This document shows, piece after piece, positions 43,456 through 59,708 of a stretch of 64,000 nucleotides of DNA. The notes under the pieces are model-generated. The model was not told the DNA's origin. It was given only the letters and a program-made list of their open reading frames with translations, and ran no database searches. The stretch covers positions 1 to 64,000 of the forward strand of contig NZ_JAEDOX010000001.1 in the NCBI RefSeq assembly GCF_017872555.1, given 5' to 3'. Within the stretch, counting starts at the first letter, position 1, and every line of letters starts with the position of its first letter. The position numbers were made by a program, and so were the translations under genes. This DNA comes from Ruegeria sp. HKCCSA071. Its GTDB lineage: Bacteria; Pseudomonadota; Alphaproteobacteria; Rhodobacterales; Rhodobacteraceae.

Positions 43456-44276
43456 TCAGGGAAATCAGTCTTGCAGCAATCTTTGCCTTTGTCGCGCAGA
43501 CGGTCCAGGCGGGCTGCGCCGATCAACAGAGCGTTTGCGAGACGCCGATGGGCGCGTATCACATCGAATTGCCCGACACAGAAAACCCGCCATTGGTGGT
43601 GTTCCTGCACGGGTATGGCGGCAGTGGTTCAGGCACGATGCGAAATCGCGGGATGGTCGAACCTCTGCTGGCGCGGGGTTATGCTGTCATGGCTCCGGAA
43701 GGCTTGGAGAGGCCCGACCGTGGTGGCACAAAAAGCTGGAATTTCTATCCCGGTTTTGGCGAACGGGATGAAACCGCCTTTCTGTCTGAAGTAGTTCAGG
43801 ACGCGGTAAACCGCTTTGGTATCGACACCGACCGGGTCATGCTGGGTGGGTTTTCGGCTGGTGGTTTTATGGTCAACTATCTGGCCTGCAAGGCACCCGA
43901 GACATTTTCGGCATATGTTCCGGTGTCCGGAGGGTTCTGGCGGCCGCACCCAGAAACCTGCAAGGGTCCGATCCGGATGTTGCATACCCACGGCTGGACC
44001 GACAACGTGGTTCCGCTTGAGGGGCGCTTGCTGGGCGGTGGCCGGTTTCAGCAGGGGGACATCTATGCCGGGCTCGAAATCTGGCGCGAGGCAAATGGCT
44101 GCGTCGATCACAAACCGGCTGGGTTCAGCACAACAGGAAAATTCATGCGCCGCCGCTGGACTGCCTGTGCCAAAGGCAGCGCGCTGGAGTTTGCCTTGTT
44201 TCCGGGCGGTCATACAGTTCCAGCTGGCTGGGCCGATATGGTCGTGGATTGGTACGAAGGGCTTCCAGGCAGTTGA
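43452..44276 (+). CDS. Secreted LpqC/PHB-depolymerase-like esterase
   Basis: A 274-residue alpha/beta hydrolase of the Esterase_phb/LpqC type. An N-terminal signal peptide (SLAAIFAFVAQTVQA, residues 6-20) is followed by FLHGYGGSGSGT (oxyanion region), GGFSAGGFM with nucleophile Ser135, a later THGWTDNVVPLEG loop with the acid residue, and PGGHTVP with the His. The natural ester is unknown; feruloyl esterases and short-chain PHB-type hydrolases share this fold. It is translationally coupled to the rhodanese gene and its stop abuts the opgH stop. Confidence 0.83.
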   Translation: MIREISLAAIFAFVAQTVQAGCADQQSVCETPMGAYHIELPDTENPPLVVFLHGYGGSGSGTMRNRGMVEPLLARGYAVMAPEGLERPDRGGTKSWNFYPGFGERDETAFLSEVVQDAVNRFGIDTDRVMLGGFSAGGFMVNYLACKAPETFSAYVPVSGGFWRPHPETCKGPIRMLHTHGWTDNVVPLEGRLLGGGRFQQGDIYAGLEIWREANGCVDHKPAGFSTTGKFMRRRWTACAKGSALEFALFPGGHTVPAGWADMVVDWYEGLPGS

Positions 44277-46148
44277 TCACTCTGCCGGGGTCATCTTGAT
44301 CTTACCTTCAACCAGTTGTTTCAGCTCGGCCCGGTAACGGCGGGCCGACCGGGTGATGGAAGGTTCGCGGAAATCCTCGCGCATCCCGACCATCCGGCGT
44401 GCGGCACCGGCCGAAACACCGCTGAGTGCTGATAGTGGGATGGCCAAAGCAAGACTGACGGCGATCGGAGCCAGCCAGATCGAGACCAGCCCGGACAGGA
44501 TACCAACACTCAAGGCTATGCCACTGACGGTTTCCAATGCGTGACACAGGATCAGCGTGCGCAATCCGTAACTGCCACCGTCGCGTGCTTGTGGCGACCA
44601 GCCCCGCTGAATGCCAAGCGCTGTCCGGAACACGGCGATCATCTGTTGCACCATCAGGATCGGCGCATAAAGGATCGACAGAATGACCTCGGCCAGAAAC
44701 GAGGTCAGGAACTTGAGGCCGCCTCCGAATTCGGAGTAGCGCACACCGCTTAGCGGCAAAGCCAGAACTCCCAGAACCTTGGGTGCCAGCAGCATTGCAT
44801 ACATCACGAGAATGATCAGAACGTGCCGGGTTTCAGACATTTCCGGCCATTGCGGGAACAGCGGATTATCGGGGCTGAAGTAATGCAGGACAGAAGCGTC
44901 TTTGCCCTGACCGATCAGTGCCCACATCAACAGCAGCGCAAACCACAGCGGTGACATCAAGTACCCAACGGCACCGTGGAACATGTGAAAACGCGAGACG
45001 GCCCGGAATCCGGTCGAGCCCAGCAGTTTCAGGTGTTGCAGGTTGCCCTGGCACCAACGCCGATCCCGCATCGCATGATCGATCAGTGTGGGGGGTGTTT
45101 CCTCGTAAGATCCCCGAATGCGTGGCAGGAACCGCACCGCCCATCCGGCACGGCGCAGCAATCCGGCCTCGACGAAATCATGGCTCATGATCAGCTTGTC
45201 CTGACCATTGAGCGCGCGCAGCTTGGGCAGTCCGGCACTGGTGGCGAAAGCCTTGGTGCGGATAATTGCGTTGTGGCCCCAATAATTGCCCTCTTGCCCG
45301 CACCAGCGCGCCAATCCTTCGGCAAAGGCGATGCCATAGACTCCATTTGCAAATTGTTGCATCCGGGCAAAAACCGATTGCGCGCCGATCAGTTGCGGAT
45401 AGCTCTGGATCAGCCCGGCACCGGGATCACGCGCCAGCGCATCGGTCAGCCGAAGTATGGCGCGACCTGTCATCAGGCTGTCCGCATCCAGAACCAGCAT
45501 CGCGTCCCAATCTGCGCCCCAGCGACTAACCCAGTCGGCGATGTTACCCACCTTGCGGTCGGTGTTTAGCTCGCGACGGCGGTAATACAACTCCAGCCCC
45601 GGGGCGAGCGTGGTGCGCAGGGCTTCGACGCTGGCCTGTTCCTGCGCCGCGATTTCAGGATCGCGCGTGTCGGACAGGATGAACATGGCATAGTGATGCT
45701 GCCGACCGCGTGCCTGCAAATCCTCAAGCATGGTGCGGGCGTTGCCCAGCACGTTCCATGGCACTTCGTTGTATACCGGTGTCAAAAGGGCCACGCGCAG
45801 GGGCTGTGCTGTGCGCTTGCGCTGCGGACGATCCTGTCGCGACAGCGACACCATACCCAGCAGAACGGTGCAGACCGTGAATGAAATCCAAAAGAAGTTG
45901 AACGAGATAAGCGCCAACAGGATGCCCTCGATCAGATTGATCCCCTGGGCGCTGAACCAGTCGCTCATGATCCATAGCAGGCCCAATGTCGCCACCATCG
46001 CCGGTGAAAACGCAAGCGCGCGCCAAAATCCAGTCGCACCCGTGTCTGTGCCCGACGGGGCATCGGCATCGTGGAACCCTACGCTGAAATTCTGCGCGGG
46101 CATCGCCAGAGGTGCTTCAGGCGGCATGATATGCAGATCGCGGTTCAT
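44277..46148 (-). CDS. opgH: Glucans biosynthesis glucosyltransferase
   Basis: Inner-membrane family 2 glycosyltransferase that polymerises the beta-glucan backbone of osmoregulated periplasmic glucans. The catalytic domain has LTPVYNEVPWNVLGNART, LVLDADSLMTG (DxD-type Asp pair) and the RRWCQGNLQHL motif (Q/RxxRW-like). Several spans flank it. Size of 623 residues is shorter than enterobacterial OpgH. I start at 46148, where the ATG overlaps the opgG stop as ATGA; ATG at 46157 and GTG at 46169 are other options. Last gene of the opgC-opgG-opgH operon. Confidence 0.92.
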   Translation of the reverse strand: MNRDLHIMPPEAPLAMPAQNFSVGFHDADAPSGTDTGATGFWRALAFSPAMVATLGLLWIMSDWFSAQGINLIEGILLALISFNFFWISFTVCTVLLGMVSLSRQDRPQRKRTAQPLRVALLTPVYNEVPWNVLGNARTMLEDLQARGRQHHYAMFILSDTRDPEIAAQEQASVEALRTTLAPGLELYYRRRELNTDRKVGNIADWVSRWGADWDAMLVLDADSLMTGRAILRLTDALARDPGAGLIQSYPQLIGAQSVFARMQQFANGVYGIAFAEGLARWCGQEGNYWGHNAIIRTKAFATSAGLPKLRALNGQDKLIMSHDFVEAGLLRRAGWAVRFLPRIRGSYEETPPTLIDHAMRDRRWCQGNLQHLKLLGSTGFRAVSRFHMFHGAVGYLMSPLWFALLLMWALIGQGKDASVLHYFSPDNPLFPQWPEMSETRHVLIILVMYAMLLAPKVLGVLALPLSGVRYSEFGGGLKFLTSFLAEVILSILYAPILMVQQMIAVFRTALGIQRGWSPQARDGGSYGLRTLILCHALETVSGIALSVGILSGLVSIWLAPIAVSLALAIPLSALSGVSAGAARRMVGMREDFREPSITRSARRYRAELKQLVEGKIKMTPAE

Positions 46149-47644
46149 ATGGTCCATCGGTAAAGCCACACCTCAGAGGCGGGCTGTTTGTCTTTCAGCA
46201 GCTGCGCGCGCAATTCAACATGATCGCGCTCTTCAGGTTGGAACGAAAACGCCAGACGCAACCCACCCGTATCCGGGTTGCGTTGCAGAACACCGTCCGA
46301 GGTTTCGGCATGAGGGGAATCCACGAAGACACTGATCGTCTCGATATCATCGAACAAGTCGCTGCCTTCGAAATCGACGACAACCAAACGCCCCTCACCA
46401 AAGGTATTTTCGCCCATGGCGGTGTTGGTCACCCGTGGCATCGGAGTGAGCTGAGGCTCCTCACCCCAGATCAGGCGATAGGACAGGTCAACCCTGCTAC
46501 CTGCCGCGTAGGGTTCAGCCGGACGCCAATAGGCGACGATGTTGTCGTAGATTTCCTGATCTGCCGGTATCTCGACCAGTGTAACGGTGCCCTTGCCCCA
46601 CTCTTCCTTAGGCTCGACCCACAGGCCCGGGCGTTTGTGATAATTCGCCTCAAGGTCGGCATAGTCCGAGAACTCGCGCTTACGCTGCATCAGCCCGAAG
46701 CCGCGCGGGTTAGTATCAACGAAGGAGGAAACCTGTAGGCGGGTTGGATTTGCCAAGGGACGCCAGAGAACCTCGCCCGCGCCATTGCGGATTAGCAACC
46801 CGTCACTGTCATGGACGGCCGGACGGAAATCGTCGAACCGGCTGTGGTTGGTCTGGTCGAACAGGAACATCGAGGTGCCCGGCGCTATGCCCACATGGGG
46901 CAGGTCATCACGCGGAAACAGCGTGGCCTCGACATCGATAATGCAATCCGCGCCCGCCGTGACATCGAACCGATAAGCACCGGTCACGCTGGGACTGTCC
47001 ATAAGCGCATGTACAACCATATTCCGTTGGCCGGGCATGGGGCGTTCCAGCCAAAAACGGATAAACTCGGGGAATTCCTCACCATCTGGATCGCCGGTTT
47101 TCAGGGCCAGTCCGCGGGCCGACAGGCCATAAACCTCATGCAGGCCAATTGCGCGGAAATAGCTGGCGCCCTGCCAGACGCAGAATTCATCCGTTTTGCC
47201 GGGGCGGTGCATCTCGGTCCGCAGTCGCAGGCCTGAAAAACCCAGGGTCTCGTCGATGGGCAATTGCGGCACATCTTCGGATTTGTCGAACATCCCCAGA
47301 TCGAAATCGACCGGTGTGGTCATGCCGTTTTCGACCGTTTCCACCTTGACGGTTCGGGGGAAATAAAGGCCCGGTGTGAAGAAATCGACGTTAAATGGCG
47401 TTTCGGTCTCGTACCACAGCGCCCGGTCCAGTCGAAAACGGATCGAGCGATATTGTTCGTAGGTCAGATCCTGCCATTCCTGGGGGACCATTTCGCGTTC
47501 CGCATAGGGACGGCTGGCAAGATCGCGGGCCAGTTCAATCACGTGGTCACGGTCAAATGGAACGGTGCCCCCGGTCGCATAGGCCGATGGGGCAAAGGCC
47601 AAAGCTGTCGTCGAAACGAGGAATGCGCGACGGGTGAAATTCAT
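46145..47644 (-). CDS. opgG: Glucans biosynthesis protein G (periplasmic)
   Basis: A 499-residue periplasmic protein of the OpgG/OpgD family, needed for backbone branching or processing of periplasmic glucans. The N-terminus has a twin-arginine type signal (NFTRRAFLVSTTALAFAPSAYA), followed by the beta-sandwich core with DLTYEQYRSIRF, NVDFFTPGLYF and the conserved PRGFGLMQRKR segment. The Tat-like motif is more typical of OpgD, so this may be the OpgD paralogue. The start at 47644 overlaps the opgC stop as ATGA. Confidence 0.9.
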   Translation of the reverse strand: MNFTRRAFLVSTTALAFAPSAYATGGTVPFDRDHVIELARDLASRPYAEREMVPQEWQDLTYEQYRSIRFRLDRALWYETETPFNVDFFTPGLYFPRTVKVETVENGMTTPVDFDLGMFDKSEDVPQLPIDETLGFSGLRLRTEMHRPGKTDEFCVWQGASYFRAIGLHEVYGLSARGLALKTGDPDGEEFPEFIRFWLERPMPGQRNMVVHALMDSPSVTGAYRFDVTAGADCIIDVEATLFPRDDLPHVGIAPGTSMFLFDQTNHSRFDDFRPAVHDSDGLLIRNGAGEVLWRPLANPTRLQVSSFVDTNPRGFGLMQRKREFSDYADLEANYHKRPGLWVEPKEEWGKGTVTLVEIPADQEIYDNIVAYWRPAEPYAAGSRVDLSYRLIWGEEPQLTPMPRVTNTAMGENTFGEGRLVVVDFEGSDLFDDIETISVFVDSPHAETSDGVLQRNPDTGGLRLAFSFQPEERDHVELRAQLLKDKQPASEVWLYRWTI

Positions 47645-48858
47645 CTCTTCAATTTCCAGGGTTGAGACTTGAACCAAGCTGCCAGATAAGCCACGCCAAT
47701 GATCATGGCAAAGCCAATTATGTTGGCGACAAAGACGGTGGCAACATCCCGCCCAGCTTGATCGAGGGCAACGCCGATAAGTCGCGCTGCTGCCATGGAA
47801 AATACAAAGACTGCAAGGGATTGCTGGCCGACTTTGGTGATGACCGTCAGCAGGAACTGCCAGACACGCGCGCCTAAACCGTGACCCGTCGCTATCAGGC
47901 GGTGACCATGTTCGCCTGCCGCAACCCAGCCCAGATAGGCCAGTGACAGGAAATGGACATACCGCAGCAGGCCAAACTCGGTCTTGCCGCGCAACTCTTC
48001 GGTCAATGGCCAGCTCTTGCGGATCACAGCGCCCAGCTCAGGTGCAGCAGTGTTAACCCAGATAAAGACTTTCCACGATCCGAATGGTGCTGAAAGGATC
48101 AGGAACAAGGCAGCTGCCCAGACCAGGGTTTTCGATACCGGTGGAGCGGGAATCCAGCCGCGCATCAAGGCAAATCCGGTGAAGAACAGCAATTGCCAGC
48201 CAAACGGGTTGAAGAACCATTGCCGATCCGACCAAGGCTCGGCTGGAAGGGCCAGCGCGCCGGTCTGGGTGATGCACCAGATGGTCACAGATGCAGCTGC
48301 CATCAGCCAGAAACTGATACGGTACAGCGCGATGTAGAGTGGCATCAGCGCCAGTACCACCAGATACATTGGCAGGATGTCAAAGTAGTTCGGTACATAA
48401 GTCAGGGTAAAGATTCCCACCATCTGAGGGGCGGGATCGTCGAAGAAATGCTGAAGATTCAGCGACGAGACATAGGTTTTCTCGAACGCACCGGTCAGAT
48501 CCAGCGCGGCCATTGTCATGGCGACGAAGAAGAACAGGGCAATATGGGCCCAATAAACCTGCCAGATGCGATAGGCCACACGGGCCGTGCCCATCCACCA
48601 GCCCTTGTGCAGGAACGCCCCGCCAAAGGCGATGGCCGAGGCCATGCCCGAACAGAACACGAAGATCTCGGTTGCGTCCGAGTACCCAAAGCGCGCCGGG
48701 ATCCAATTCGCCCAGGGATCATTAGGAATGTGGGCGATCAGGATGATGAACATCGCGATGCCGCGATAGAAATCCAGTCGCGGGTCACGCGTGCGGGCGG
48801 GGGCCGCAGCCGGGGCTGCGACGGGTGCAAAATCAGCAGCGGGCGATATGGTCGCCAT
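47641..48858 (-). CDS. opgC: OpgC family acyltransferase
   Basis: A 405-residue polytopic membrane protein of the OpgC/acyltransferase type that adds succinyl groups to periplasmic glucans. After a 30-residue Ala/Pro-rich N-terminus come RDPRLDFYRGIAMFIILIAHIP (active-site helix and His), WIPARFGYSDATEIFVFCSGMASA and about ten spans. AAGGA lies ten bases before ATG 48858. It is followed by opgG with an ATGA overlap and preceded by the TPR gene, 28 bp upstream. Confidence 0.9.
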   Translation of the reverse strand: MATISPAADFAPVAAPAAAPARTRDPRLDFYRGIAMFIILIAHIPNDPWANWIPARFGYSDATEIFVFCSGMASAIAFGGAFLHKGWWMGTARVAYRIWQVYWAHIALFFFVAMTMAALDLTGAFEKTYVSSLNLQHFFDDPAPQMVGIFTLTYVPNYFDILPMYLVVLALMPLYIALYRISFWLMAAASVTIWCITQTGALALPAEPWSDRQWFFNPFGWQLLFFTGFALMRGWIPAPPVSKTLVWAAALFLILSAPFGSWKVFIWVNTAAPELGAVIRKSWPLTEELRGKTEFGLLRYVHFLSLAYLGWVAAGEHGHRLIATGHGLGARVWQFLLTVITKVGQQSLAVFVFSMAAARLIGVALDQAGRDVATVFVANIIGFAMIIGVAYLAAWFKSQPWKLKR

Positions 48859-48886: not shown

Positions 48887-50257
48887 TTATTCGGCGGGGA
48901 CGCTTTGCATGTCTCCGCCGTCACGGGCCGCATCAATCAGGGAGCGGCGCGCGATGGCATAATTGTCTTCTCCCCCGGCGCGCTTGGCGCGACGGTCGTC
49001 CAGAATGCGTTCAACGGCATCGAGACGACCGGCCCGAAGCCCGGAATCGATGGTAATGCGTTCAAATACATCACGTTGCGCGTGGCTGCCACCAGCCAGT
49101 TGCATCGAACCGCGCGCTGCCAACAGGTGATCAAATGCCGTGCCATAATGGCCGTCACCAAAGGCTTCAAGACCCATGGCGGCCGCGACACCGGGATCGG
49201 CCATACGGCGGGTGGTGTCGTCATTGGCGCGCGCTGCATCCTTGTTGAGGCGAGTCAGCATCTTGGCGGTGGCATCAGCGCGGTTGTCACCGGTCAGCGC
49301 CAGCAGATAATGCAGATCCGCAAAGATCAGGCAGCCGTCTTCGGTGCGTGCAGCACTCAGGTCAGCCAGTTCTTCCCAGCGATTTCCGACATTTACGCCT
49401 TCTAGTTCAAGCCGCATCAGCAACGAGGTTCCGTTCGAGATGTCGCGGTAATCGTCGGTTTTGTCCTTGCGAACGTGGTTGTCATACAGATCCATCACCT
49501 GATCGACCTGACCAAGATCCAGATGCATCAGGGCCTTGTGCCACCAGACGTGATAGCGGAAGTTGTTGCAATGGGCCCAGGCCGCCTCGCGTCCGGCCAG
49601 CCAGTCAAGGCCCAGCTGCGCGTTGCCGGTCATTTCATGGACATGGGCCACCGCGTGCAGACCCCAGGCATCGTCGGACACCATCCAAAGCGCCTGACGT
49701 CCCGCGATTTCGGCCTTTTCATAAGCTCCGGTTTCTTCCAGCGCGAAGGAATGGCAGCCCAGCAGATAGCCCCGACCGGGATGATCGGGTTCATATGCAG
49801 GCATCACCCGTTCGATCGAACGGCGCATTCCGCCCGGATCGCCCAGAACGAAACGGGTCGCGTGGCTGAGTTTCATCGCCAACGTATCCTGCGGATGATC
49901 GCGCAGGACCGCTTCGAACTTTTGCACCGCCTGTGTCAGTTGGCCCGCCAGATACAGCCCCAAAGCATCGACAAACAACCGCTCGCGTGCCGAGACGGGC
50001 TGCTGTTTCATCGCAGCATTGGCAGCCGCCAAAGCCTCGACTGCAACCGCCATCATCTCGCGCCGACCGAGAAGGCCCATGAAAAGGCCTTTCACGGCAT
50101 GACCCAAAGCAAAATCGGGCTCAAGCTCCAGCACTTTGCTCAGATGTTGGGGCGTAACCGCGGCATGTGCCATGAACCCAAGCAGAACACCATTCCAAGC
50201 TTCGACAGCTTCAGGCTGCGCCAAGGTGTTCATCTGTCCAAAAACGTCTTGTTTCAT
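48887..50257 (-). CDS. TTC38-like tetratricopeptide repeat protein
   Basis: A 456-residue helical-repeat protein of the tetratricopeptide repeat protein 38 group. The conserved middle is visible: LLGCHSFALEETGAYEKAEIAGRQAL, GLHAVAHVHEMTGN and RYHVWWHKALMHLDLGQVDQVMDLYD, which together define the family. No signal peptide or membrane span. Function unknown. It lies 28 bp before opgC and is probably the first gene of the opg transcription unit, so it may have a role in glucan export or regulation, but that is inference. Confidence 0.78.
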   Translation of the reverse strand: MKQDVFGQMNTLAQPEAVEAWNGVLLGFMAHAAVTPQHLSKVLELEPDFALGHAVKGLFMGLLGRREMMAVAVEALAAANAAMKQQPVSARERLFVDALGLYLAGQLTQAVQKFEAVLRDHPQDTLAMKLSHATRFVLGDPGGMRRSIERVMPAYEPDHPGRGYLLGCHSFALEETGAYEKAEIAGRQALWMVSDDAWGLHAVAHVHEMTGNAQLGLDWLAGREAAWAHCNNFRYHVWWHKALMHLDLGQVDQVMDLYDNHVRKDKTDDYRDISNGTSLLMRLELEGVNVGNRWEELADLSAARTEDGCLIFADLHYLLALTGDNRADATAKMLTRLNKDAARANDDTTRRMADPGVAAAMGLEAFGDGHYGTAFDHLLAARGSMQLAGGSHAQRDVFERITIDSGLRAGRLDAVERILDDRRAKRAGGEDNYAIARRSLIDAARDGGDMQSVPAE

Positions 50258-50436
50258 ACTTGGGTCCAATCTGATTGCGGTATTTGACACTGTTTGATGT
50301 AGCAGAGTGTGCGAGAGCGGCGTATCAGTATCGACCCCGCTCTCGAATTGGTGAAATGTCGTGTGTGAAAAAGTCGAAAAAATCCGCCGATTCAAAGGCA
50401 TGTTTCAGCAACTTGCCGCCTAGTTGTGCAAGTGTT

Positions 50437-51621
50437 TCAATCGTCGAACGGGTTTTCAGCGTTTAATACCCAGTCAGTGTCCGCCCCGCAGGTGGGTGGC
50501 GCGCTGCGATATGTTACAGGCGTACGTGACAGGTTCAGGGGATTCCCGATCAGGTTCACCGCACCGGGCTGGGCCTGCATCGAAATCTGCATTTTTCGTG
50601 CTGCTACCTGTTCCGTATCAAAAACCTGATCCAGCGTCTGGACCGGACCTACGGGCACTTTCACGTCTTCAAGACCGGAAATCACGGATCGCGTATCCAG
50701 ACCTTGAACAGCAGGCCGTAGAATGGCGTTCAGCGCATCACGGTGTTCCAGTCGCGCCGGGTTGGTCGCGAATCTGGGGTCGTCGGCAAGTTCGGGGTGT
50801 CCCAGGAAACCGCACAGCTTTCTGAACTGGCCATCATTTCCGACCGCCAGAATGACATGCCCATCGGATGTCTCGTAAACGTCATAAGGCACGATGTTGG
50901 GATGCCCGTTTCCACGGCGTTGCGGAACGTCGCCTGAAGTCAGGTAATTGACGCCCTCGTTGATCAGCCATGCGATCTGAGAATCAACAAGTGCCAGATC
51001 GACCTGCTGGCCTTCACCGGTCAGGTCGCGGTGGCGCAGCGCGGCCAGAATGCCAACGCTAGCATACATTCCGCACATCACATCAGCGATGCCGACCCCC
51101 ACTTTCATCGGCGCGCCTTCCGGGTCGCCGGTCAGGGACATGATCCCACCATAACCTTGCGCCATCAGGTCATAGCCGGGTTTGCTGGCGTTCGGCCCGG
51201 TTTGGCCGTAACCCGAAATCGAGCAGTAAACGAGGCTGGGGAATTCCTGCGACAGGGTGGCATAGTCCAGCCCGTATTTCGCCAGACCACCGGGTTTGAA
51301 ATTCTCGATCAGAATATCCGCGTGTGAGGCCAGCCGCCGAATTTCCGCCTGACCTTTCTCAGTCGCGATATCCAGCGCCACGGATTTCTTGTTTCGGTTC
51401 GCTGACATGAAATAGGCGCTCAGGTCCGAGCGGTTGCCGTCGGCATCGGTGACATAGGGCGGACCCCATTGCCGTGTGTCGTCGCCGCCGGTGGCAGGGT
51501 TTTCGATCTTGATGACGCTTGCGCCCAGATCACCCAGCAACTGCGTGCAGGTCGGCCCGGCCAGAATACGGCTGAGGTCCAGAACCTTGACGCCCTTCAG
51601 CGGGCCCTCAGATGCGGCCAT
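50437..51621 (-). CDS. CaiB/BaiF-family CoA-transferase (class III)
   Basis: A 394-residue family III CoA-transferase, moving CoA between carboxylic acids through a covalent Asp intermediate. ILAGPTCTQLLGDLGASVIKIE, NRNKKSVALDI, the SISGYGQTGPNASKPGYDLMAQ segment with the catalytic Asp, and NIVPYDVYETSDGHVILAVGND are all standard. Substrate unknown; formyl-, succinyl- and carnitine-type members share these motifs. GGAGG sits five to six bases before ATG 51621. It overlaps the upstream ThDP gene by 14 bases, so the two are coupled. Confidence 0.87.
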   Translation of the reverse strand: MAASEGPLKGVKVLDLSRILAGPTCTQLLGDLGASVIKIENPATGGDDTRQWGPPYVTDADGNRSDLSAYFMSANRNKKSVALDIATEKGQAEIRRLASHADILIENFKPGGLAKYGLDYATLSQEFPSLVYCSISGYGQTGPNASKPGYDLMAQGYGGIMSLTGDPEGAPMKVGVGIADVMCGMYASVGILAALRHRDLTGEGQQVDLALVDSQIAWLINEGVNYLTSGDVPQRRGNGHPNIVPYDVYETSDGHVILAVGNDGQFRKLCGFLGHPELADDPRFATNPARLEHRDALNAILRPAVQGLDTRSVISGLEDVKVPVGPVQTLDQVFDTEQVAARKMQISMQAQPGAVNLIGNPLNLSRTPVTYRSAPPTCGADTDWVLNAENPFDD

Positions 51622-53227
51622 CGTATCCTCCACGGTCGATTTCAGCGGCGATGACGGTAAATGTCTCGGCCTTTACAGCAGCTTCAAGTGCTGCACGCAA
51701 CTCTGCCCGGTTGCGGACAGTGTGGCCGTTCCCACCAAATGCACGGCCCATGGCCGCGAAGTCATGGTGACCGAAATCCACGCCATTCTTTCCCATTTGC
51801 CGCTGCCGCTGTTTCAACTCGATAAGGGCAAGGCTGGCATCAACGAAGACAAGAAAGATCGGATTGCCGCCCATTTCAGCCGCCGTCGACAATTCCCCGG
51901 CGACCATCAGAAACCCGGCATCACCCGAAAAGCTGATCACCGGGCGGTCAGGCTCGGCCAGTTTCAGACCAATGGCCATTGGGACAGCACAGCCCATGGT
52001 GCAGAGCGCCGAGGATTGGATCAGCCCACGTTCTTCGCTGCAGTCCCACATCTGGCTCAGCAGAATGCGATGCGCGCCGCTGTCGGCGGTTGCCAGCGTT
52101 TCGGGGGGCAGGGTAGCCCGCGTTTCGGCGATGACCGCTGCGGGTCCCCAGTCCTCATCGGTGGGAAAGGCCTGTGCCAGTGCGGTTTTGACCTGCGCGG
52201 GCTCACCACCCGGCCACGTTGCGCGGGCAGGGTTTCCCTTGGCGATGGCCTCCAGCGTCTCGCCCGTGTCGGCCACCAGATTAAGACCCGCCTGATGCAT
52301 GTAGTGGTCATTGATCACCGCTGATATGTCGATGACGCGCTTTTCTTCGGGGTCCCAGATTTCGCGCCAGCCGGGGCGCATTTCGATCGGGTCATACCCC
52401 AGACACAGCACCAGATCGGCGTGTTCGACCAATGGGACAAGGTGCTTGTCTGCCAAAGGCGACAGGCCAGCGCCGCCCAAACACAAAGGGTGATCTTCGG
52501 GAACAACACCCTTGGCCTTGTAGGTGGTAACAAATGGAATTCCGAAATGTTCCAAAAACGCCTGCACAACACTGCGCGAGTCGTCATAGAGGACATCGAG
52601 ACCGATAATGGCGATGGGGCGCTCGGCCTCAGCCACCCAGCGCCGGGCTTTTTCAAGGCATTCACCATTGGGGCTGACAGGCGCGACCTTGGCCAGGCGG
52701 CGGCGTTTTTTACCCGTCACCGGCGTGTCGGCGACCGAGATCGGGACATCAATATGAACCGGCCCCGGTCGCGGCTGCGTGGCCAGCGACACCGCCTTGT
52801 CTGCGATGATATCCGCACCCTTGGCCGTCAGGGTAAACGTGCCCTTGGTGATGGAACGGTAAACCTGGCTGTGGTCCATAACCTGATGGGTGTAGGTCAG
52901 CGCTTCGTCCGCATCGACACAACCGGTCAGAACGATCATCGGAACACGGTCCTGCAACGCATTGGCCACCACGTTGATGCCGTTCATCGCGCCGGGACCC
53001 AAAGTGGCGACCAGAATCGCAGGCGCGCCGTCGCGGTGATGCACGGCCTCGGCCATGAATCCGGCCGAGTTTTCATGTTTTGTCAGATGAAAGGTGATGC
53101 CCGCTTTCTCAAGCGCATCCACCAGTGTCAGCACCTCACCCCCCGGCATTCCAAACGCGTGGCGGCACCCCTCTTCGTACAGGCGTTGGGCCAGAAGATC
53201 GGCGGCGCGCGGCGTGGGGTCCTGCAT
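51608..53227 (-). CDS. Thiamine diphosphate-dependent enzyme, acetolactate-synthase-like
   Basis: A 539-residue ThDP enzyme with the N-terminal Pyr domain (HAFGMPGGEVLTLVDAL; catalytic Glu52 in KHENSAGFMAEA), a central domain, and the C-terminal PP domain with GDAGFLMVAGELSTAAEMG. The metal motif reads GDA, and the usual NN at its end appears as FVDASLA, an unusual departure. It resembles acetolactate synthase-type proteins but not the Oxc or Xsc enzymes I can recall. Linkage to a CoA-transferase suggests a 2-oxoacid or acyl-CoA substrate. It is the first gene of a two-gene unit. Confidence 0.8.
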   Translation of the reverse strand: MQDPTPRAADLLAQRLYEEGCRHAFGMPGGEVLTLVDALEKAGITFHLTKHENSAGFMAEAVHHRDGAPAILVATLGPGAMNGINVVANALQDRVPMIVLTGCVDADEALTYTHQVMDHSQVYRSITKGTFTLTAKGADIIADKAVSLATQPRPGPVHIDVPISVADTPVTGKKRRRLAKVAPVSPNGECLEKARRWVAEAERPIAIIGLDVLYDDSRSVVQAFLEHFGIPFVTTYKAKGVVPEDHPLCLGGAGLSPLADKHLVPLVEHADLVLCLGYDPIEMRPGWREIWDPEEKRVIDISAVINDHYMHQAGLNLVADTGETLEAIAKGNPARATWPGGEPAQVKTALAQAFPTDEDWGPAAVIAETRATLPPETLATADSGAHRILLSQMWDCSEERGLIQSSALCTMGCAVPMAIGLKLAEPDRPVISFSGDAGFLMVAGELSTAAEMGGNPIFLVFVDASLALIELKQRQRQMGKNGVDFGHHDFAAMGRAFGGNGHTVRNRAELRAALEAAVKAETFTVIAAEIDRGGYDGRI

Positions 53228-53306: not shown

Positions 53307-53765
53307 CTATTTGACTGCCTCTTCGGCGACGGATTGAAAGGCTGTATCCAATTCTGCGGCAATGTCCTGCAAGACTTGCCCGCCTTCCGCCATGTAAGGG
53401 GCAAACACGAAGCTGGGGGTCTTGTAAGACAGGGTTGCGGTCCCGTCCTCGTTCTCGGTGACGTAGAAACGGATCGGTGCTTCGATCATCGCATTGGTAG
53501 AGGTTTCCAGCACCCGCACCGCGTAATCGTTGTTGAACGCACCAATCACCAGATTGCCTGGAATGGTGATCCCGCGCGCCGCAGCAGCTTTGGTGGGGCC
53601 AGCCTGCGTCACCACAATTAGCCCGTTGTCCTTGATTGCAGCCTTGGTTGCATCGACCAGTTCCGAGTAGGTCTTGTCCGCAGGAAGCACGGCCCAACCG
53701 GTTGGGGCGTCTTGTGCCCAAACGGGTAAAGCGATCAGGCAGAGCAAGGGAATGAGGGCTTTCAT
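53307..53765 (-). CDS. Exported DUF302 domain protein
   Basis: A 152-residue protein with a signal peptide (MKALIPLLCLIALPVWA, residues 1-17) and one DUF302 domain (TYSELVDATKAAIKDNGLIVV, then VIGAFNNDYAVRVLE and APIRFYVTENEDG). The family's function is unknown. The start at 53765 is fixed by the signal peptide; an upstream extension has no such feature. It lies 80 bp before the ThDP gene on the same strand and after cobF; no functional link is evident. Confidence 0.8.
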   Translation of the reverse strand: MKALIPLLCLIALPVWAQDAPTGWAVLPADKTYSELVDATKAAIKDNGLIVVTQAGPTKAAAARGITIPGNLVIGAFNNDYAVRVLETSTNAMIEAPIRFYVTENEDGTATLSYKTPSFVFAPYMAEGGQVLQDIAAELDTAFQSVAEEAVK

Positions 53766-53852: not shown

Positions 53853-54596
53853 TTATTTCCGTCGCGCCTTCAATAGGTAGATATCCATGATCCAGCCATG
53901 TTCGGCGCGGGCCTTCGCCCGGGTCTTAAGGATGTTCTGCGCAACCTCATCCAGCGGGCCACTGATCAGAACCTCTTCTTTCATACCCACATAGGCGCCC
54001 CACCAGATGTCAAAACCTGCCGTATCAAGGGTTTGGAACGAACATTCGCCATCCAGCATCACCGCAACGTTCGAGGCCGCATCAGGCCAGCCTTCATCCC
54101 GGATACGACGACCGGTTGTAACAACGTAAGGTGCGCCCAGATCATTGATCGGAATCGCATGGGCAGCGGTCAGCGCCTGCAACGCGGTGATGCCGGGGAT
54201 AACCTTGGTATTTGGTTGCGGGTTCAATCGTGCAGCGATGCGCAGTGAGCTGTCATAGAGGGACGGATCCCCCCAGATCAGCAACGCGACATGCTGCGCC
54301 TTTGGGTGCGCGGCAATGGCCGCTTGCCAGCGCAGGGCGATGGCGTCGTGCCATTCATCGACACCGCGCAGGTAGCCATCGTCGGCCCGGCGCTGGGGAA
54401 TATCGAAATAGGCGATCTGTGGCGGCGTTTCGGCGACACGCTCGATGATCGCTTCACGCAGCCCGGCCAGATCAGCCTTGTTTTCCCCTTTGCGCGGAAT
54501 CAGGATCAAATCCGCCGCCCGGATGGCTTGCGCGCCTTGAAACGTTACATGATCCGGATTGCCGGTGCCGATGCCGATCAAGCTCAGATCAATCAT
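53853..54596 (-). CDS. cobF: Precorrin-6A synthase (deacetylating)
   Basis: SAM-dependent C-1 methyltransferase of aerobic cobalamin synthesis, which methylates precorrin-5 with loss of the C-20-derived acetate. The 247-residue protein has the tetrapyrrole methylase SAM loop LSLIGIGTGNPDHVT, ALLIWGDPSLYDS and VIPGITALQALTAA. This enzyme exists only in the oxygen-dependent route. ATG 54596 lies inside the end of cobA, an 8-bp overlap. Last gene of the minus-strand cob operon. Confidence 0.91.
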   Translation of the reverse strand: MIDLSLIGIGTGNPDHVTFQGAQAIRAADLILIPRKGENKADLAGLREAIIERVAETPPQIAYFDIPQRRADDGYLRGVDEWHDAIALRWQAAIAAHPKAQHVALLIWGDPSLYDSSLRIAARLNPQPNTKVIPGITALQALTAAHAIPINDLGAPYVVTTGRRIRDEGWPDAASNVAVMLDGECSFQTLDTAGFDIWWGAYVGMKEEVLISGPLDEVAQNILKTRAKARAEHGWIMDIYLLKARRK

Positions 54597-55317
54597 CGTC
54601 GAACTCCGCCAGCGGACCATAAAGGATCAGCGCCGGTGCTTTGCCAATCTCGGTTTTCAGCTGTTCTGCGAGCGCGCCAATCGTGGCGCGTTGCAGTTTT
54701 TGGTCGGGAGTCGAGACGGATTCGGCCATAAGCGCCGGAGTATCCAAAGGCAAACCTTGGGCGTGCAGCGTATCGACCAGCAGGGGAAAGGTGCGCTTGC
54801 CCATGAAAACGACGGTCGTGGCCTGCGGATCGGCCAGCGCTTTCAGGTTCAGGTCGCCGGGTAGATCACCACTGACGTCATGGCCCGTCACGAACTGAAC
54901 CCGTCGGGCCGTGAGCCTGCGCGTCAATGGAATGCCAGCGGCTGCTGCCGCTGCTATTGCCGAGGGGACGCCGGGAATGATCTCATAGGCGATACCAGCT
55001 GCGCGCAGGGCGACAAGCTCTTCCTCAAGCCGTCCGAACATACCGCCGTCGCCGGACTTCAGGCGCACCACATGCTGACCGGACTGCGCGTAATCCACCA
55101 GCAGCCGGCTGACATGGTCCTGCTTGGGTGACGGACGACCGGCCCGCTTTCCGACACCAACCAGATCCGCATCGTCGCGCGCATGGCTCAGGATCGGGCC
55201 ACTGCTGAGATCGTCGAACAAGATCGCGTCGGCTTTTTGCATCCGGTCCACCGCCTTGAGCGTCAGTAGTTCCGGATCACCGGGGCCAGAGCCGATGAAA
55301 GAGACAAAGCCGCTCAT
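54589..55317 (-). CDS. cobA: Uroporphyrinogen-III C-methyltransferase
   Basis: First committed step towards precorrin-2, methylating uroporphyrinogen III at C2 and C7. The 242-residue protein shows the SUMT motifs FIGSGPGDPELLTLKAV, GVGKRAG, VRLKSGDGGMFGR and PGVPSAIAAAAAAGIPLT. It is a stand-alone methylase, without the oxidase/chelatase part of CysG, and given its location it supplies cobalamin rather than siroheme. It overlaps cobB by four bases and cobF by eight. Confidence 0.94.
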   Translation of the reverse strand: MSGFVSFIGSGPGDPELLTLKAVDRMQKADAILFDDLSSGPILSHARDDADLVGVGKRAGRPSPKQDHVSRLLVDYAQSGQHVVRLKSGDGGMFGRLEEELVALRAAGIAYEIIPGVPSAIAAAAAAGIPLTRRLTARRVQFVTGHDVSGDLPGDLNLKALADPQATTVVFMGKRTFPLLVDTLHAQGLPLDTPALMAESVSTPDQKLQRATIGALAEQLKTEIGKAPALILYGPLAEFDDD

Positions 55318-56630
55318 GCCGACGCCTCCGCAATCAGGTGAAAGAACGTGCCAGTGACATTGCCGCGTAGTGATCCGGTTTGCGGGCCTTCTTCCCCTTC
55401 GGCGTCAAACACGCGTGCCAATGGGGCGTCCGGTTGATCCATGATTGAGGAATAGTGGAACTCGTGTCCGCGCAATGCCGATCCTTTGGCAAAGCCGGGC
55501 ATAGGGGCCAGAAGGGCGGCCTTTCTGTAACCAAGGTTGAACTTGCGCTTCTGATAAGATGTGACGAGGCCCAGCAAGCCGGCCATTTCATGTTGCACGC
55601 CGTCCTTGTCGATCAGCGCCTGACCAAGCGCCATGTAGCCGCCGCATTCTCCGTGCACCGGTTTTGTTTCCGCATGTTTACGCAGTCCACTCAGAAAGGT
55701 GGTGGCCGCCGCCAATGCTCCGGCATGCAATTCGGGATACCCGCCAGGCAGCCAGACCAGATCGGCGTCCGCCGCCGGAGGTTCGTCTGCCAAAGGGGAA
55801 AAAGGCAGGATCTCGGCACCCGCATCGTGCCACCCTTGCAAAAGGTGAGGATAGGTAAAGGAAAAGGCGGCATCACGGGCCAGCGCGATCCGCTGGGCCG
55901 GGGGCTGCGGCAGCGCGGCTGACGAAGGTCCGCCGGGGCCTGAGGAAGCTGCCCGCTTGATAGCGTCGAGGTCTACATGTTCTCGCAAGAACGCGGCATA
56001 GCCTACAATGGCGCTTTCCAGATCGGGGTGTTCAACCGCCTGAATAAGTCCCAGATGCCGCTCTGGCAGGGTCAAATCACCACGGCGGGGCAGCACGCCC
56101 AGAACAGGCAGGCCCGCGCGCTCCATTCCCAGACGGGTCAGGCGTTCGTGGCGGGGGCTGGCGCATCGGTTCAGGATAACTCCGGCAAAGGGCAGATCGG
56201 GATTGTACATCCTGAACCCCAGCGCTGTTGCCGCCGCTGATTGTGCCTGCCCGCCCACATCCAAGACAAGCACAACGGGCCAGCCCATGCGCAGGGCGGT
56301 CTCGGCACTCGAACCGTGCCCAACTTCGCCAGGCTTTGCGACACCGTCGAACAAACCCATCGAGCCCTCGGCCACCACAATGTCAGCGCCTTCGGCCTGA
56401 GCAGAAATTGCGCTGAGCAGGGGATCTGCCATGGCCCAGCTGTCCAGATTGAACGAAGCCCGCCCGGCCGCCGCCCGGTGAAAGGCGGGATCGATATAAT
56501 CCGGCCCGCTTTTAAAGGGTTGCACGGTCAGGCCATCTTCGGCCAGCGCGCGCAAGAGGCCCAGCATGACCGTCGTCTTGCCGGTACCCGAAGAGGGAGC
56601 TGAAATCAGAATACCCGGAGGGTTAGTCAT
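55314..56630 (-). CDS. cobB: Hydrogenobyrinic acid a,c-diamide synthase
   Basis: Glutamine- and ATP-dependent amidation of the a and c side chains of hydrogenobyrinic acid. The 438-residue protein has a P-loop ([19 protein letters not shown]), the [11 protein letters not shown] segment and a C-terminal class I glutamine amidotransferase-like domain with [10 protein letters not shown] (catalytic Cys) and LRGHEFHYS (His). I start at ATG 56630, with GGAG at eight bases; ATG 56636 is two codons earlier. It begins inside the cobM coding region (8-bp overlap). Confidence 0.93.
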
Positions 56631-57417
56631 CACCATGGCTCCAGCTTGACCAAGGGCTGTCGGCACTTTGCGGGCGATAGCGGCGGTCGTAGTCTCTGGA
56701 ATAAAGACAGCTTTCGTCAAAACCCTCACCGGCCAGCGCGGGGCCGACCATGATCAAAGCCGTGCGCGAGATGCTTTGATCCAGCGACCCTTTCAGGGTT
56801 TCCAGCGTTGCGCGGATGATCTGTTCATCCGGCCAGCTTGCGCGATATACAACGGCCACCGGGCAATCTGCACCATAAGCCGGGGTCAGGTCTGCGATAA
56901 CCTTGTCCAGATTGCCGATTGACAGATGAATGGCCAATGTCGCGCCGGTACGGGCAAAATTCACCAGCGTTTCACCTTCGGGCATGGATGACGCGCGCCC
57001 CGGCGTTCGGGTCAGAACCACCGATTGCGCCAATCCCGGCAAGGTCAGTTCGGTGCCCAGGGCCGCTGCGGCGGCGGCAAAGGATGGCACGCCAGGGGTC
57101 ACACTGACCGGAATGCCCATTTCTTTCAGGCGGCGGATCTGTTCGCCCATCGCTGACCAGACTGACAAATCGCCCGAATGCAGCCGCGCCACATCCTGAC
57201 CCGCTTTATGCGCGACTTCGATCTCGGCCATGATCTGGTCCAGATCCATGGGCGCGGTGTTGACGATTTTTGCGTCTTTGGGGCAATGGCTCAGAATTTC
57301 CTCGGGCACCAGCGATCCGGCATAAAGGCACACGGGGCACGAGGCGATGATGTTGCGCCCACGCAATGTCAACAGGTCTGCAGCGCCCGGTCCGGCGCCG
57401 ATGAAATGAACGGTCAT
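56623..57417 (-). CDS. cobM: Precorrin-4 C11-methyltransferase
   Basis: Methylates precorrin-4 at C-11 to precorrin-5. The 264-residue protein contains the methylase landmarks [36 protein letters not shown] and [20 protein letters not shown]. The start at 57417 overlaps the cobE stop as ATGA; a longer in-frame reading to 57570 lies inside cobE. Substrate recognition follows CobM rather than CobJ or CobI by the surrounding pathway genes and the GTELT segment. Confidence 0.92.
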
Positions 57418-57782
57418 GTTTGTCCTCCGATGGCGATGGCGCAGGTGGCCAGCCGGTCGTCCGAAATATGTCTGGGTGAAAGCAGCCGCGCGCCGGACCC
57501 GGCGGCGGCAAGGGCCGATGCTTCGGCTACGCTGCCGGTGCCATAAGCGGCACGGCTGCGGTTCGAACATGTCAGGGTGCGTTGTCCGGCTAAATCGGCA
57601 GCCGCCACGAAATGCAGCGGAAGGGCAAGGCTTTCCGCAAAGGCCGCCAGCGCAGAGTGGCCGCTTTTGTCGGCAACCGTCGCCAAAGCCTGGACGTCAT
57701 GACTGGCCGCTGCCGCGTCATAGGCGGCGCGCAAACTGTCTGTCGTCGCGTCTGATGAAAAGCCCAAACCTGCCACGATCAT
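57414..57782 (-). CDS. cobE: CobE/GbiG C-terminal type cobalamin biosynthesis protein
   Basis: A 122-residue protein whose frame lies inside a longer, low-quality reading; the true gene starts at ATG 57782 ([12 protein letters not shown]). [38 protein letters not shown] and [14 protein letters not shown] match CobE, equivalent to the C-terminal domain of CbiG. Its role in the aerobic route is not fully settled; it is thought to help in ring-contraction intermediate handling or protection. It overlaps cobL and cobM by four bases each. Confidence 0.88.
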
Positions 57783-58978
57783 AGCGTCACGCTCCACTGG
57801 ACAACCGGATAGGCAGCCTTCCAGGCGCGCCGCGGTCCGAGCGGTGCAGAATGTGCCAGTTCGATCCGCAAAAGGTCTCCGCCTAGGTCTTGGTGCCATC
57901 GCGCCAACAGGGCTTCGCTTTCCAGCGTTACCGCATTGGCGACCAACCGGGTGCCAGCGGGCAAGGCGTCGCGAAGCCACGCCAGCAGGCTGGTGCTGAG
58001 CCCACCGCCGATGAAAACCACGTCCGGCAGGGGCAATCCGGCCAGCGCTTCGGGTGCTGTACCGTGGACAACCTGTAACCGATCCTGCCCCAGCGCGTCG
58101 GCATTGCGACGAATGCGTTCGGCCCTGTCGGCGCGGGGTTCGATACTGGTGGCGGTCAGGGTCGGGTCGCACATCAGCCATTCGATGCTGATCGAGCCGG
58201 TGCCACCGCCAATGTCCCACAGATGCTCACCCCTCTGTGGCGCCAATGCGGACAGGGTCAGCGCCCGGATCGGGCGTTTGGTGATCTGGCCGTCGGTTTC
58301 AAAAAGATCATCCGGCTTGCCCGAGGCCTTGGACACTCCCCGCCCAGTGCCGGTCACTTCCAACCCGACGCAGACAGGATGATCGAAGGTTCCCAGCAGA
58401 GCTTCGGTCAGGCTCACTGTCTGGACGTTTTCACGCGGGCCGCCGAGGGCCTGCATCACATTCAACGCGCTGTCGGCAAATCCGGTTTCGCTTAGATATG
58501 TAGCCAGTTCAGCAACCGCCTTGCCGTCACGCAAAAGTACAATGGCGTGCAGGCCCGCGGCCAGATGCGGCCGCAACCGGGTCAAAGGCGCGGCGTGCAG
58601 GCCAAAGGTCAGCGTGCTTTCCAAAGGCCAGCCCAGGCGCGCAGCGGCCAGCGAAAACGTGGACTGGCCGGGCAGGGCGGTCCACTCGTTGGCATCGAAG
58701 TTACGCGCGATGACGGACCCTGCGCCAAACCAGAACGGATCACCTGACGCCAGAACCACCGTCTGCCGTCCGCGCAGGCCTTTCAGGATCGGCAAACCGT
58801 CCGAGAACGGCACCGGCCATTCGAACCGCTCAGCCTCGTTTTCCGGCAGCAGCGACAGGTGGCGCGGCGGCCCCATGATCACTTCGGCCCGGTCCAGCAC
58901 TTGACGGCTTGCAGGCGACAGGCCATCAAGCCCATCTTCGCCCAATCCCAGAACGGTCAGCCACGGAGATTCAGACAT
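57779..58978 (-). CDS. cobL: Precorrin-6Y C5,15-methyltransferase (decarboxylating)
   Basis: Bifunctional enzyme methylating C-5 and C-15 and decarboxylating the C-12 acetate, giving precorrin-8X. The 399 residues divide into an N-terminal CbiE-like methylase (LTVLGLGEDGLDGLSPASR, VLASGDPFWFGAG) and a C-terminal CbiT-like domain with the SAM loop HLWDIGGGTGSISIEWL. The start at 58978 (MSESPWLTVLG) shares the CATG with the divergent cobK start; its AGGAG ribosome-binding site lies inside cobK. Confidence 0.94.
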   Translation of the reverse strand: MSESPWLTVLGLGEDGLDGLSPASRQVLDRAEVIMGPPRHLSLLPENEAERFEWPVPFSDGLPILKGLRGRQTVVLASGDPFWFGAGSVIARNFDANEWTALPGQSTFSLAAARLGWPLESTLTFGLHAAPLTRLRPHLAAGLHAIVLLRDGKAVAELATYLSETGFADSALNVMQALGGPRENVQTVSLTEALLGTFDHPVCVGLEVTGTGRGVSKASGKPDDLFETDGQITKRPIRALTLSALAPQRGEHLWDIGGGTGSISIEWLMCDPTLTATSIEPRADRAERIRRNADALGQDRLQVVHGTAPEALAGLPLPDVVFIGGGLSTSLLAWLRDALPAGTRLVANAVTLESEALLARWHQDLGGDLLRIELAHSAPLGPRRAWKAAYPVVQWSVTL

Positions 58979-59708
58979 GCCCAAACTCCTGATTCTTGGC
59001 GGCACGACCGAGGCCAACGCTCTGGCCAAAGCTGTTGCGGAACAAGGGATTGCGGCTGTGTATTCTTACGCCGGACGGGTGGAAACCCCGCGCCCGCAGC
59101 CGTTGCCGGTGCGGGTTGGCGGGTTTGGCGGCCCGGAAGGTCTGGCCGCCTATATCCATGAGAACGCCATCAACCATGTCGTGGACGCGACCCATCCATT
59201 TGCGGCCCGGATGAGCCGGAACGCGATTGAGGCGTGTCACGCAACTCAGGTCCCACTGGCCGCCTTGACCCGCGCGGCGTGGAAGCCGCAACCCGGCGAC
59301 GTCTGGCACCGCGTGCCAGATATCACTGCCGCCGTCGATGCGCTTGCAGGTGATCCGCAGCGTGTGTTTTTGGCTGTCGGACGTATGCACCTTGAGGACT
59401 TTGCTACTCAGCCCCAGCATTACTACCTGCTGCGCCTTGTGGATGAGCCCGACACTTTGCCCTTGCCCAACGCAGAGGTGGTCGTGGCCCGGGGTCCTTT
59501 TACAGAAGCCGATGACCGTGCGCTGATGCAGCAACACAGGGCGCAACTTGTGGTGTCCAAGAACGCGGGTGGCTCGGGTGCGCGTGCCAAGTTGGACGCA
59601 GCGCGGGCGCTGGGCCTGCCAGTGCTTATGATCGACCGCCCTGTTCTGCCCAAGCGGACCGAGCTTTCGACTGTCGCACAGGTTCTGGACTGGCTGTCTC
59701 ATCCCTGA
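58977..59708 (+). CDS. cobK: Precorrin-6A reductase
   Basis: NADPH-dependent reduction of precorrin-6A to dihydro-precorrin-6Y. The 243-residue protein begins with LLILGGTTEANALAKAV (Rossmann loop) and has HVVDATHPFAARMSRNA and VSKNAGGSGARAKLDAAR, both typical of CobK/CbiJ. It is the only cob gene here on the plus strand: its start codon overlaps the cobL start by two bases, with GGAG at eight bases inside cobL, and its end overlaps the cobJ end by ten bases. Confidence 0.94.
   Translation: MPKLLILGGTTEANALAKAVAEQGIAAVYSYAGRVETPRPQPLPVRVGGFGGPEGLAAYIHENAINHVVDATHPFAARMSRNAIEACHATQVPLAALTRAAWKPQPGDVWHRVPDITAAVDALAGDPQRVFLAVGRMHLEDFATQPQHYYLLRLVDEPDTLPLPNAEVVVARGPFTEADDRALMQQHRAQLVVSKNAGGSGARAKLDAARALGLPVLMIDRPVLPKRTELSTVAQVLDWLSHP

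Follow-up and report, generated by a model that had tools for sequence, protein, structure and literature searches.

A ThDP enzyme and CoA-transferase pair in a Ruegeria periplasmic glucan operon as a candidate acyl supply for a distinct OpgC subfamily

Osmoregulated periplasmic glucans (OPGs) have been described in Escherichia coli, Rhodobacter sphaeroides and Dickeya dadantii. Succinylation of OPGs in D. dadantii depends on OpgC; the mass added there is 100 Da per succinyl and 42 Da per acetyl group (PMC4726272). Acyl-CoA has been shown to be the donor for some acyltransferase-3 proteins; OPGs can carry succinyl and methylmalonyl groups (PMC9558356). Succinyl, methylmalonyl and acetyl are the only glucan acyl groups described in the portions of these two sources used here (PMC4726272, PMC9558356). 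Here we analyse a gene run in the first 64,000 nucleotides of contig NZ_JAEDOX010000001.1 of Ruegeria sp. HKCCSA071 (the window), which shares with these OPG systems an MdoH-type glucosyltransferase, an MdoG-type protein and OpgC in one operon but differs in gene order, opening with a thiamine diphosphate (ThDP) enzyme, a class III CoA-transferase and a TPR protein. We consider it somewhat probable that the first two genes act in the cytoplasm as the acyl-supply arm of an operon for OPG synthesis and acylation.

A class III CoA-transferase is also common to the Act-AcdA pathway of Variovorax paradoxus TBEA6 and the desulfinase pathway of Advenella mimigardefordensis, as described in the parts of these sources on which we drew (PMC6370202, PMC5373536). 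In TBEA6, 3-sulfinopropionate is processed by the CoA-transferase Act and the desulfinase AcdA. The strain also has a putative acetolactate synthase, IlvX (VPARA_05550), that is overrepresented on this acid and on TDP; growth on TDP was unchanged when the gene was deleted (PMC6370202). Relatives of the window pair have the ThDP gene, often with the CoA-transferase gene, beside a gene that passes the desulfinase cut-off, whereas the window genome lacks a desulfinase. In the open-access library searched, we found no publication linking the desulfinase with acetolactate synthase, or periplasmic glucan with sulfinopropionate or sulfinopropionyl, and no description of a glucan operon carrying its own acyl-making enzymes.

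A glucan operon opened by an enzyme pair

A sequence-only reading of the window had picked out adjoining ThDP and CoA-transferase genes overlapping by 14 bases and had presented them without further context. The pairing and the overlap (51608-51621) hold, but the two genes do not stand alone: they open an operon that also encodes OpgC, OpgG and OpgH. All six genes lie on the minus strand in the order ThDP enzyme, CoA-transferase, TPR protein, OpgC, OpgG, OpgH, and inspection of start sites gave an overlap or a gap of at most 35 bp at every junction. The operon and its flanking genes comprise:

51608-53227, minus strand: ThDP-dependent enzyme of the ALS/AHAS (acetolactate synthase) fold, 539 amino acids, family unassigned, first gene of the six-gene run; evidence from Pfam, NCBIfam, AlphaFold2 and structure matches
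50437-51621, minus strand: class III (CaiB/BaiF) CoA-transferase, 394 amino acids; PF02515 438 bits, catalytic Asp180, GNGH loop at residues 237-240
48887-50401, minus strand: TPR-type protein; weak TPR matches below cut-off, present in 104 of 109 OpgC-containing ThDP loci
47641-48858, minus strand: OpgC membrane acyltransferase, 'type M'; ATG at 48858 chosen in a reading frame that opens at 48936; PF10129 353 bits, R-x10-H motif
46145-47644, minus strand: MdoG/OpgG-type periplasmic glucan biosynthesis protein; PF04349 617 bits, twin-arginine-like start
44277-46157, minus strand: MdoH/OpgH glucosyltransferase of periplasmic glucans; NF003962 828.9 bits against a cut-off of 328
43452-44276, plus strand: secreted-looking PHB-depolymerase-like esterase, convergent with the operon; below NCBIfam cut-offs, recurs in the module and is annotated in rhizobial copies
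53307-53765, minus strand: DUF302 protein; PF03625 35.1 bits, 79 bp upstream of the ThDP gene

The PF10129 score and the R-x10-H acyl-CoA motif place the membrane acyltransferase in the OpgC family, and the pair are thus the first genes of a predicted operon for the synthesis and acylation of OPGs. The start of the CoA-transferase was set at the ATG at 51621, closely preceded by GGAGG; a GTG at 51633, if used instead, would extend the overlap with the ThDP gene to 26 bases. Across 103 fetched loci with both genes on the same strand, many of them from close Ruegeria relatives, the longest open reading frames (ORFs) overlap or end within 30 bases of each other in 93, so the pairing is not due to chance.

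Association with one OpgC subfamily

We surveyed 198 Rhodobacteraceae genomes, of which 52 were ThDP-positive (E <=1e-100) and 146 ThDP-negative. An OpgC gene lies within 20 kb of the ThDP gene in 36 of the 52, and within 3.4 kb in 35 of these. Among the other 16, some have the ThDP gene at a contig end (in G078 the contig breaks inside the TPR gene) and five are without any OpgC match. A close CoA-transferase is present in 36/52 ThDP-positive versus 11/146 ThDP-negative genomes. Outside the Rhodobacteraceae, overlapping sets of 385 and 398 genomes yielded 28 with the ThDP gene (E <=1e-90), and the fetched stretch holds an OpgC in 12 of them (in G811 about 10 kb away) and a desulfinase in eight. 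OpgC adjoins the ThDP gene on annotated Rhizobium, Sinorhizobium and Bosea plasmids. Several modules of these three genera (L119-L126) lie near genes for a sigma-70-family factor and for NrsF/DUF1109, YHS-domain and TetR proteins; these neighbours suggest stress control.

Among 150 fetched loci, 109 contain OpgC, in many arrangements and most of them from close Ruegeria relatives (the R. pomeroyi locus L083 carries the complete run); the TPR gene occurs in 104 of the 109 and the transferase in 94, counting a fragment (L055) and a distant homologue (L119). Outside the Rhodobacteraceae, gene orders other than that of the window include TPR-ThDP-OpgC-CoA-transferase, ThDP-OpgC-TPR, CoA-transferase-ThDP-OpgC and esterase-CoA-transferase-ThDP-TPR-OpgC. 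The R-x10-H motif falls within the first 140 residues in 107 of 109 OpgC ORFs scoring above 250 bits (one of 110 was dropped); in the two exceptions the ORF seems to be called too long.

The best OpgC of each of 85 OpgC-positive genomes (47 ThDP-positive, 38 ThDP-negative) was typed with two hidden Markov models, one trained on 33 OpgCs from ThDP loci (type M) and one on eight from ThDP-negative genomes (canonical); at least four of the 47 and eight of the 38 were also training sequences. The window OpgC scored 705 bits with the type-M model and 170 with the canonical one. Type M was found in 46 of the 47 OpgC-bearing ThDP-positive genomes, the exception being a fragment of 126 bits (G147), while the 38 ThDP-negative genomes gave 24 canonical OpgCs, seven of type M and seven of neither type. 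One of these seven type-M 'negatives' has a piece of the ThDP gene at a contig end (G022) and two are incomplete genomes (G118, G122). Over all 198 genomes, type M occurs in 46/52 ThDP-positive versus 7/146 ThDP-negative genomes, and canonical OpgC in 1/52 (G066, which has both) versus 24/146. The Fisher values computed on these counts are descriptive only, and second OpgC copies were read in just three ThDP-positive genomes (L300-L302).

Type M persists in eight genomes in which the ThDP and OpgC genes lie on different contigs or 3 Mb apart (G004, G008, G017, G083, G101, G108, G162 and G194). In G101, the ThDP, desulfinase and TPR genes are together at L191, and a type-M OpgC, DUF302 and CoA-transferase at L257, 3 Mb away; the DUF302 gene accompanies type-M OpgC at L258 also, where the ThDP gene is again elsewhere. 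Sixteen OpgCs from the first 18 ThDP-negative genomes fetched form their own clade (support 0.998) with the window OpgC outside it, in a comparison whose canonical set did not include the OpgC of R. sphaeroides. These 16 are in the order OpgG-OpgH-OpgC, and none of the 16 operons fetched has such a CoA-transferase or TPR gene nearby; at one of them (L250) a ThDP homologue of 23% identity is nearby. The order fits the opgGIH-opgC operon that R. sphaeroides reportedly has, going by a reference title alone. The several gene orders, the several families and the distinct OpgC subfamily indicate, on comparative grounds, that the association is more than synteny, and we hold a functional tie between the pair and the type-M OpgC to be highly probable.

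The two enzymes and their desulfinase-linked relatives

The ThDP protein has all three TPP-enzyme Pfam domains (111.6, 107 and 80.7 bits), the cofactor glutamate, a GDx...D/N metal site and the fold of the ALS/POX group, to which it is assigned. Its motif reads GDAGF...VDASLALI, and the sequence-only description 'GDA, with no NN' is literally correct; as a defect, the 'altered cofactor motif' does not survive alignment of the family. The third residue of the motif is Ala in 90 and Gly in 23 of 113 members; Asp463, the metal ligand that replaces the first Asn of NN, is kept in 113/113, and the cofactor-activating Glu52 in 112/113, with a gap in the remaining one. Catabolic acetolactate synthase also has Asp at this position (VDNGY, 1ozf alignment). 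Because Asp463 and Glu52 are conserved across the family and catabolic acetolactate synthase shares the Asp, GDA is a family trait and the cofactor site is intact.

Other residues set the family apart. Arg284, Trp287, His311 and Lys472 are present in 113/113 members and Arg387 in 112/113; E. coli IlvI and IlvB lack all five in those columns, with an Arg one column before Arg284, and E. coli Oxc has Glu where the family has Gln115. Two distant homologues (L180, L181) have Arg284, Trp287, Arg387 and Lys472 and lack His311. Catabolic acetolactate synthase AlsS (1ozf, 4rjj) shares with the ThDP protein the fold, the cofactor glutamate, the HQ pair and the Asp metal ligand, and differs from it in overall sequence (27% identity) and in two stretches, NGQQTMG and DNGYNMV in AlsS corresponding to SALCTMG and DASLALI. 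An AlphaFold2 model (pLDDT 89.8, below 50 at residues 470-478) retrieved acetolactate synthases first in Foldseek, and the best solved structures are only about 27% identical, leaving no close characterised relative among them. In VIA-align 2 the top match was BbmA ('HKA synthase', Z 45.1), and many families scored Z 40-43. The predicted structure thus does not fix the substrate.

Among the best 25 of 54 NCBIfam families, the ThDP protein reached no cut-off: it scored 350.9 bits with the best model, PRK08322 (cut-off 509), 287.3 and 261 with the AlsS models (510 and 551), 238.9 with biosynthetic acetolactate synthase (538) and 175.6 with HACL (600). We built a FastTree phylogeny in which the family homologues were joined by six ThDP paralogues from the window genome; its only characterised references were E. 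coli IlvI, IlvB, Oxc, Gcl and PoxB. The 113 homologues form one clade (support 1.0), or 115 with L180 and L181 (0.998), and all five references fall outside it; close placement with a characterised enzyme, which the sequence-only reading had named as the outcome that would count against its view, was not obtained. Its description of the protein as resembling acetolactate synthase rather than Oxc agrees with these results, and the undescribed oxo-acid or CoA-ester chemistry that it suggested is still a candidate. The closest named relatives are from Ruegeria, at up to 94%.

The CoA-transferase belongs to class III by its PF02515 match, catalytic Asp and GNxH loop; Asp180 aligns with Asp169 of Frc, and an Asp stands there in 80/80 aligned transferases. 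No cut-off was reached in any of seven NCBIfam families: 466.9 bits with the succinate-glutarate CoA-transferase model NF052585 (cut-off 750), 318.5 with the mesaconate model (700), 273 with CoA:oxalate (522), and 218.5 and 226.1 with the formyl-CoA transferase models TIGR03253 (504.2) and PRK05398 (442). Succinate-hydroxymethylglutarate and succinate-glutarate CoA-transferases (9br6, 9br7; NF052585) are class III too, and the window transferase matches 9br7 at 288 bits while differing in its score below the NF052585 cut-off. By similarity, then, it is placed near the succinyl-CoA-dependent dicarboxylate transferases.

In 17 fetched loci, the ThDP gene neighbours an acyl-CoA-dehydrogenase-like gene, 15 of them also having a LysR-type gene (a name taken from annotated records only), and no OpgC occurs in the fetched stretch of any of the 17. 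Ten of these loci were scored (L115 and nine others), and all ten pass the 600-bit cut-off for 3-sulfinopropanoyl-CoA desulfinase (615.7-673.1), as does a Mesorhizobium loti gene (676.7). The latter's operon, which consists of LysR, CoA-transferase, desulfinase and sulfate-exporter-family genes, contains the closest plasmid relative of the window CoA-transferase (65%), and a TPR gene of the module family (330 bits) lies near it on pML2037 (L224:10374-11705). That TPR gene adjoins genes of the glutamine-synthetase and gamma-glutamyl-gamma-aminobutyrate-hydrolase families. Neither context forms a clade in the ThDP tree, where the 76 loci with OpgC are spread across all 113 tips and the 17 with a desulfinase across 103; in the transferase tree, which did not contain the characterised Act, the window clade (support 0.994) includes five desulfinase-linked members and the M. 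loti gene. Many inner nodes are poorly supported; the two contexts are mixed in both trees.

On plasmid pBB1 of Cupriavidus necator N-1 (L118), transferase, desulfinase, aspartate-transaminase-like, ThDP and succinate-semialdehyde-dehydrogenase-like genes share one locus, which also holds an acetylornithine-deacetylase-like gene. The set reads like a putative route from amino acid to 2-oxo acid, aldehyde, acid and CoA ester, followed by desulfination. In the window genome, the desulfinase gene expected of a 3-sulfinopropionate catabolic unit was not found (best match 34% identity; none at 1e-150). Within the survey, a desulfinase occurs in 12/52 ThDP-positive versus 5/146 ThDP-negative genomes, a weaker link than that of type-M OpgC. 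It adjoins the ThDP gene in five genomes (G003, G089, G101, G126, G194) and lies on another contig in seven (G004, G011, G072, G108, G125, G139, G183). Because 12 ThDP-positive genomes carry a desulfinase, seven of them on another contig, transfer to glucan and desulfination may coexist as fates in one cell. A conserved 'cluster 4' ORF of about 450 amino acids beside the ThDP gene in four loci was discarded as a shadow ORF, antisense over the desulfinase in L099, L164 and L165; it had no Pfam match in the two of the four loci scanned.

Elsewhere, the opposite strand carries another ThDP-like ORF just upstream of the module ThDP gene in L079, L081-L085 and L218, in Ruegeria pomeroyi, Tropicibacter and relatives (about 560 amino acids in L079). 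Upstream of the window operon, tetrapyrrole-methylase and other cobalamin-biosynthesis-like ORFs occupy 53853-60580, the check (PF00590) covering only 53853-54620, and they give no sign of a functional link to the operon.

A proposed acyl supply and its alternatives

The operon layout, the family assignments and the repeated association with one specific OpgC subfamily, across several arrangements of the genes, are the firm part of the acyl-supply proposal at the level of sequence. Beyond this, the ThDP enzyme would turn a 2-oxo acid, by decarboxylation or carboligation, into an acid, or into an aldehyde that is then oxidised to the acid; the family-invariant Arg284 and Lys472 and the near-invariant Arg387 could hold a distal acidic group of its substrate. 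The CoA-transferase would activate the acid to an acyl-CoA from succinyl-CoA, the type-M OpgC would transfer the acyl group to glucan, and the PHB-depolymerase-like esterase might remove it. Succinyl-CoA comes from the tricarboxylic acid cycle, which makes a dedicated CoA-transferase pointless if the group is plain succinyl, so the group transferred is probably that of another dicarboxylate-like acid. The adjacency of the same two families to 3-sulfinopropanoyl-CoA desulfinase in other genomes points to a C3-C5 acid that bears a further acidic group. The boldest candidate, and a long shot, is 3-sulfinopropionyl: the ThDP enzyme would decarboxylate a 2-oxo-4-sulfinobutyrate-like acid toward 3-sulfinopropionate, the transferase would make 3-sulfinopropionyl-CoA, and the type-M OpgC would transfer its acyl group to glucan, while desulfinase-bearing relatives would burn the same CoA ester.

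Several observations weigh against the acyl-supply proposal. The substrate and reaction of both enzymes are putative, and the co-occurrence counts and Fisher values ignore shared ancestry. In eight of the 28 ThDP genomes outside the Rhodobacteraceae, the fetched stretch lacks both OpgC and a desulfinase, and three genomes with the desulfinase beside the ThDP gene (G003, G089, G126) lack any OpgC match. No OpgG or OpgH was found in the fetched stretches of the rhizobial plasmids (L119-L126), so the glucan acceptor may differ there. The CoA-transferase is absent from 15 of the 109 OpgC-containing loci; of 12 genomes queried for it, G011 and G126 have it beside the ThDP gene, and in the other ten no homologue exceeds 51% identity, so it is dispensable in some cases. 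Finally, a ThDP homologue of 32% identity adjoins a canonical OpgC on the other strand at L241 (G048), and the ThDP neighbour is therefore not strictly confined to type M. As separate observations, the L241 homologue shares Asp463, Arg387 and Lys472 and not Arg284, and a CoA-transferase homologue of 47-51% identity, present in most of those ten genomes, was rejected as a stand-in for missing copies, being nearly universal (a match at <=1e-105 in 177/198 genomes).

A less probable account that still deserves attention is that the pair is a small catabolic unit, for degradation of a sulfinate or a C4-C5 acid, that shares a transcript with the glucan genes so as to be regulated together with them, for instance under osmotic or oxidative stress, and that does not supply OpgC. 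The 17 loci with desulfinase, 15 with a LysR-type gene, would be natural company for such a unit, as would the M. loti operon with its sulfate-exporter-family gene and the sigma-70-family and NrsF/DUF1109 genes near rhizobial and Bosea modules. Yet no desulfinase was found in the window genome, and presence of the ThDP family goes with one OpgC subfamily even where the two genes are unlinked. We think it unlikely that the module serves ordinary succinylation, with 2-oxoglutarate or some similar acid as the substrate of the ThDP enzyme and the transferase keeping succinyl-CoA and succinate in balance for OpgC. In favour of this, OpgC is known to transfer succinyl groups (PMC4726272), the transferase scores best with the NCBIfam model for succinate-glutarate CoA-transferase, and one locus (L118) has a succinate-semialdehyde-dehydrogenase-like gene beside the ThDP gene, but the module OpgC is a separate subfamily and the 16 canonical operons do without the CoA-transferase and TPR genes, with ThDP homologues only at L241 and L250; succinylation therefore does not need this gene set.

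The two readings closest to described enzymes were rejected on profile cut-offs, tree and residues. An acetolactate synthase, catabolic or biosynthetic, beside an unrelated CoA-transferase is very improbable: the best profile and the best solved structures, by sequence and by Foldseek, are acetolactate synthases, but identity is 27%, all four equivalog cut-offs are missed (by the PRK08322, AlsS and biosynthetic models above), and IlvI and IlvB lack Arg284, Trp287, His311 and Lys472, despite the nearby Arg. An oxalate pair of Oxc and Frc, which would also set the same two superfamilies side by side, is scarcely credible given formyl-CoA transferase scores below their cut-offs (218.5 against 504, 226 against 442), the position of E. 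coli Oxc outside the family clade and its Glu in place of Gln115.

The acylation of periplasmic glucans is already recognised as an envelope trait. If the acyl-supply proposal is true, it would give a function to an unassigned ThDP family spread over the Alphaproteobacteria, divide OpgC into two subfamilies that use different donors, and predict a new glycan group in the envelope that could be checked by mass spectrometry. Were that group 3-sulfinopropionyl, the modification would be new to glycans and would give sulfinates a new biological role.

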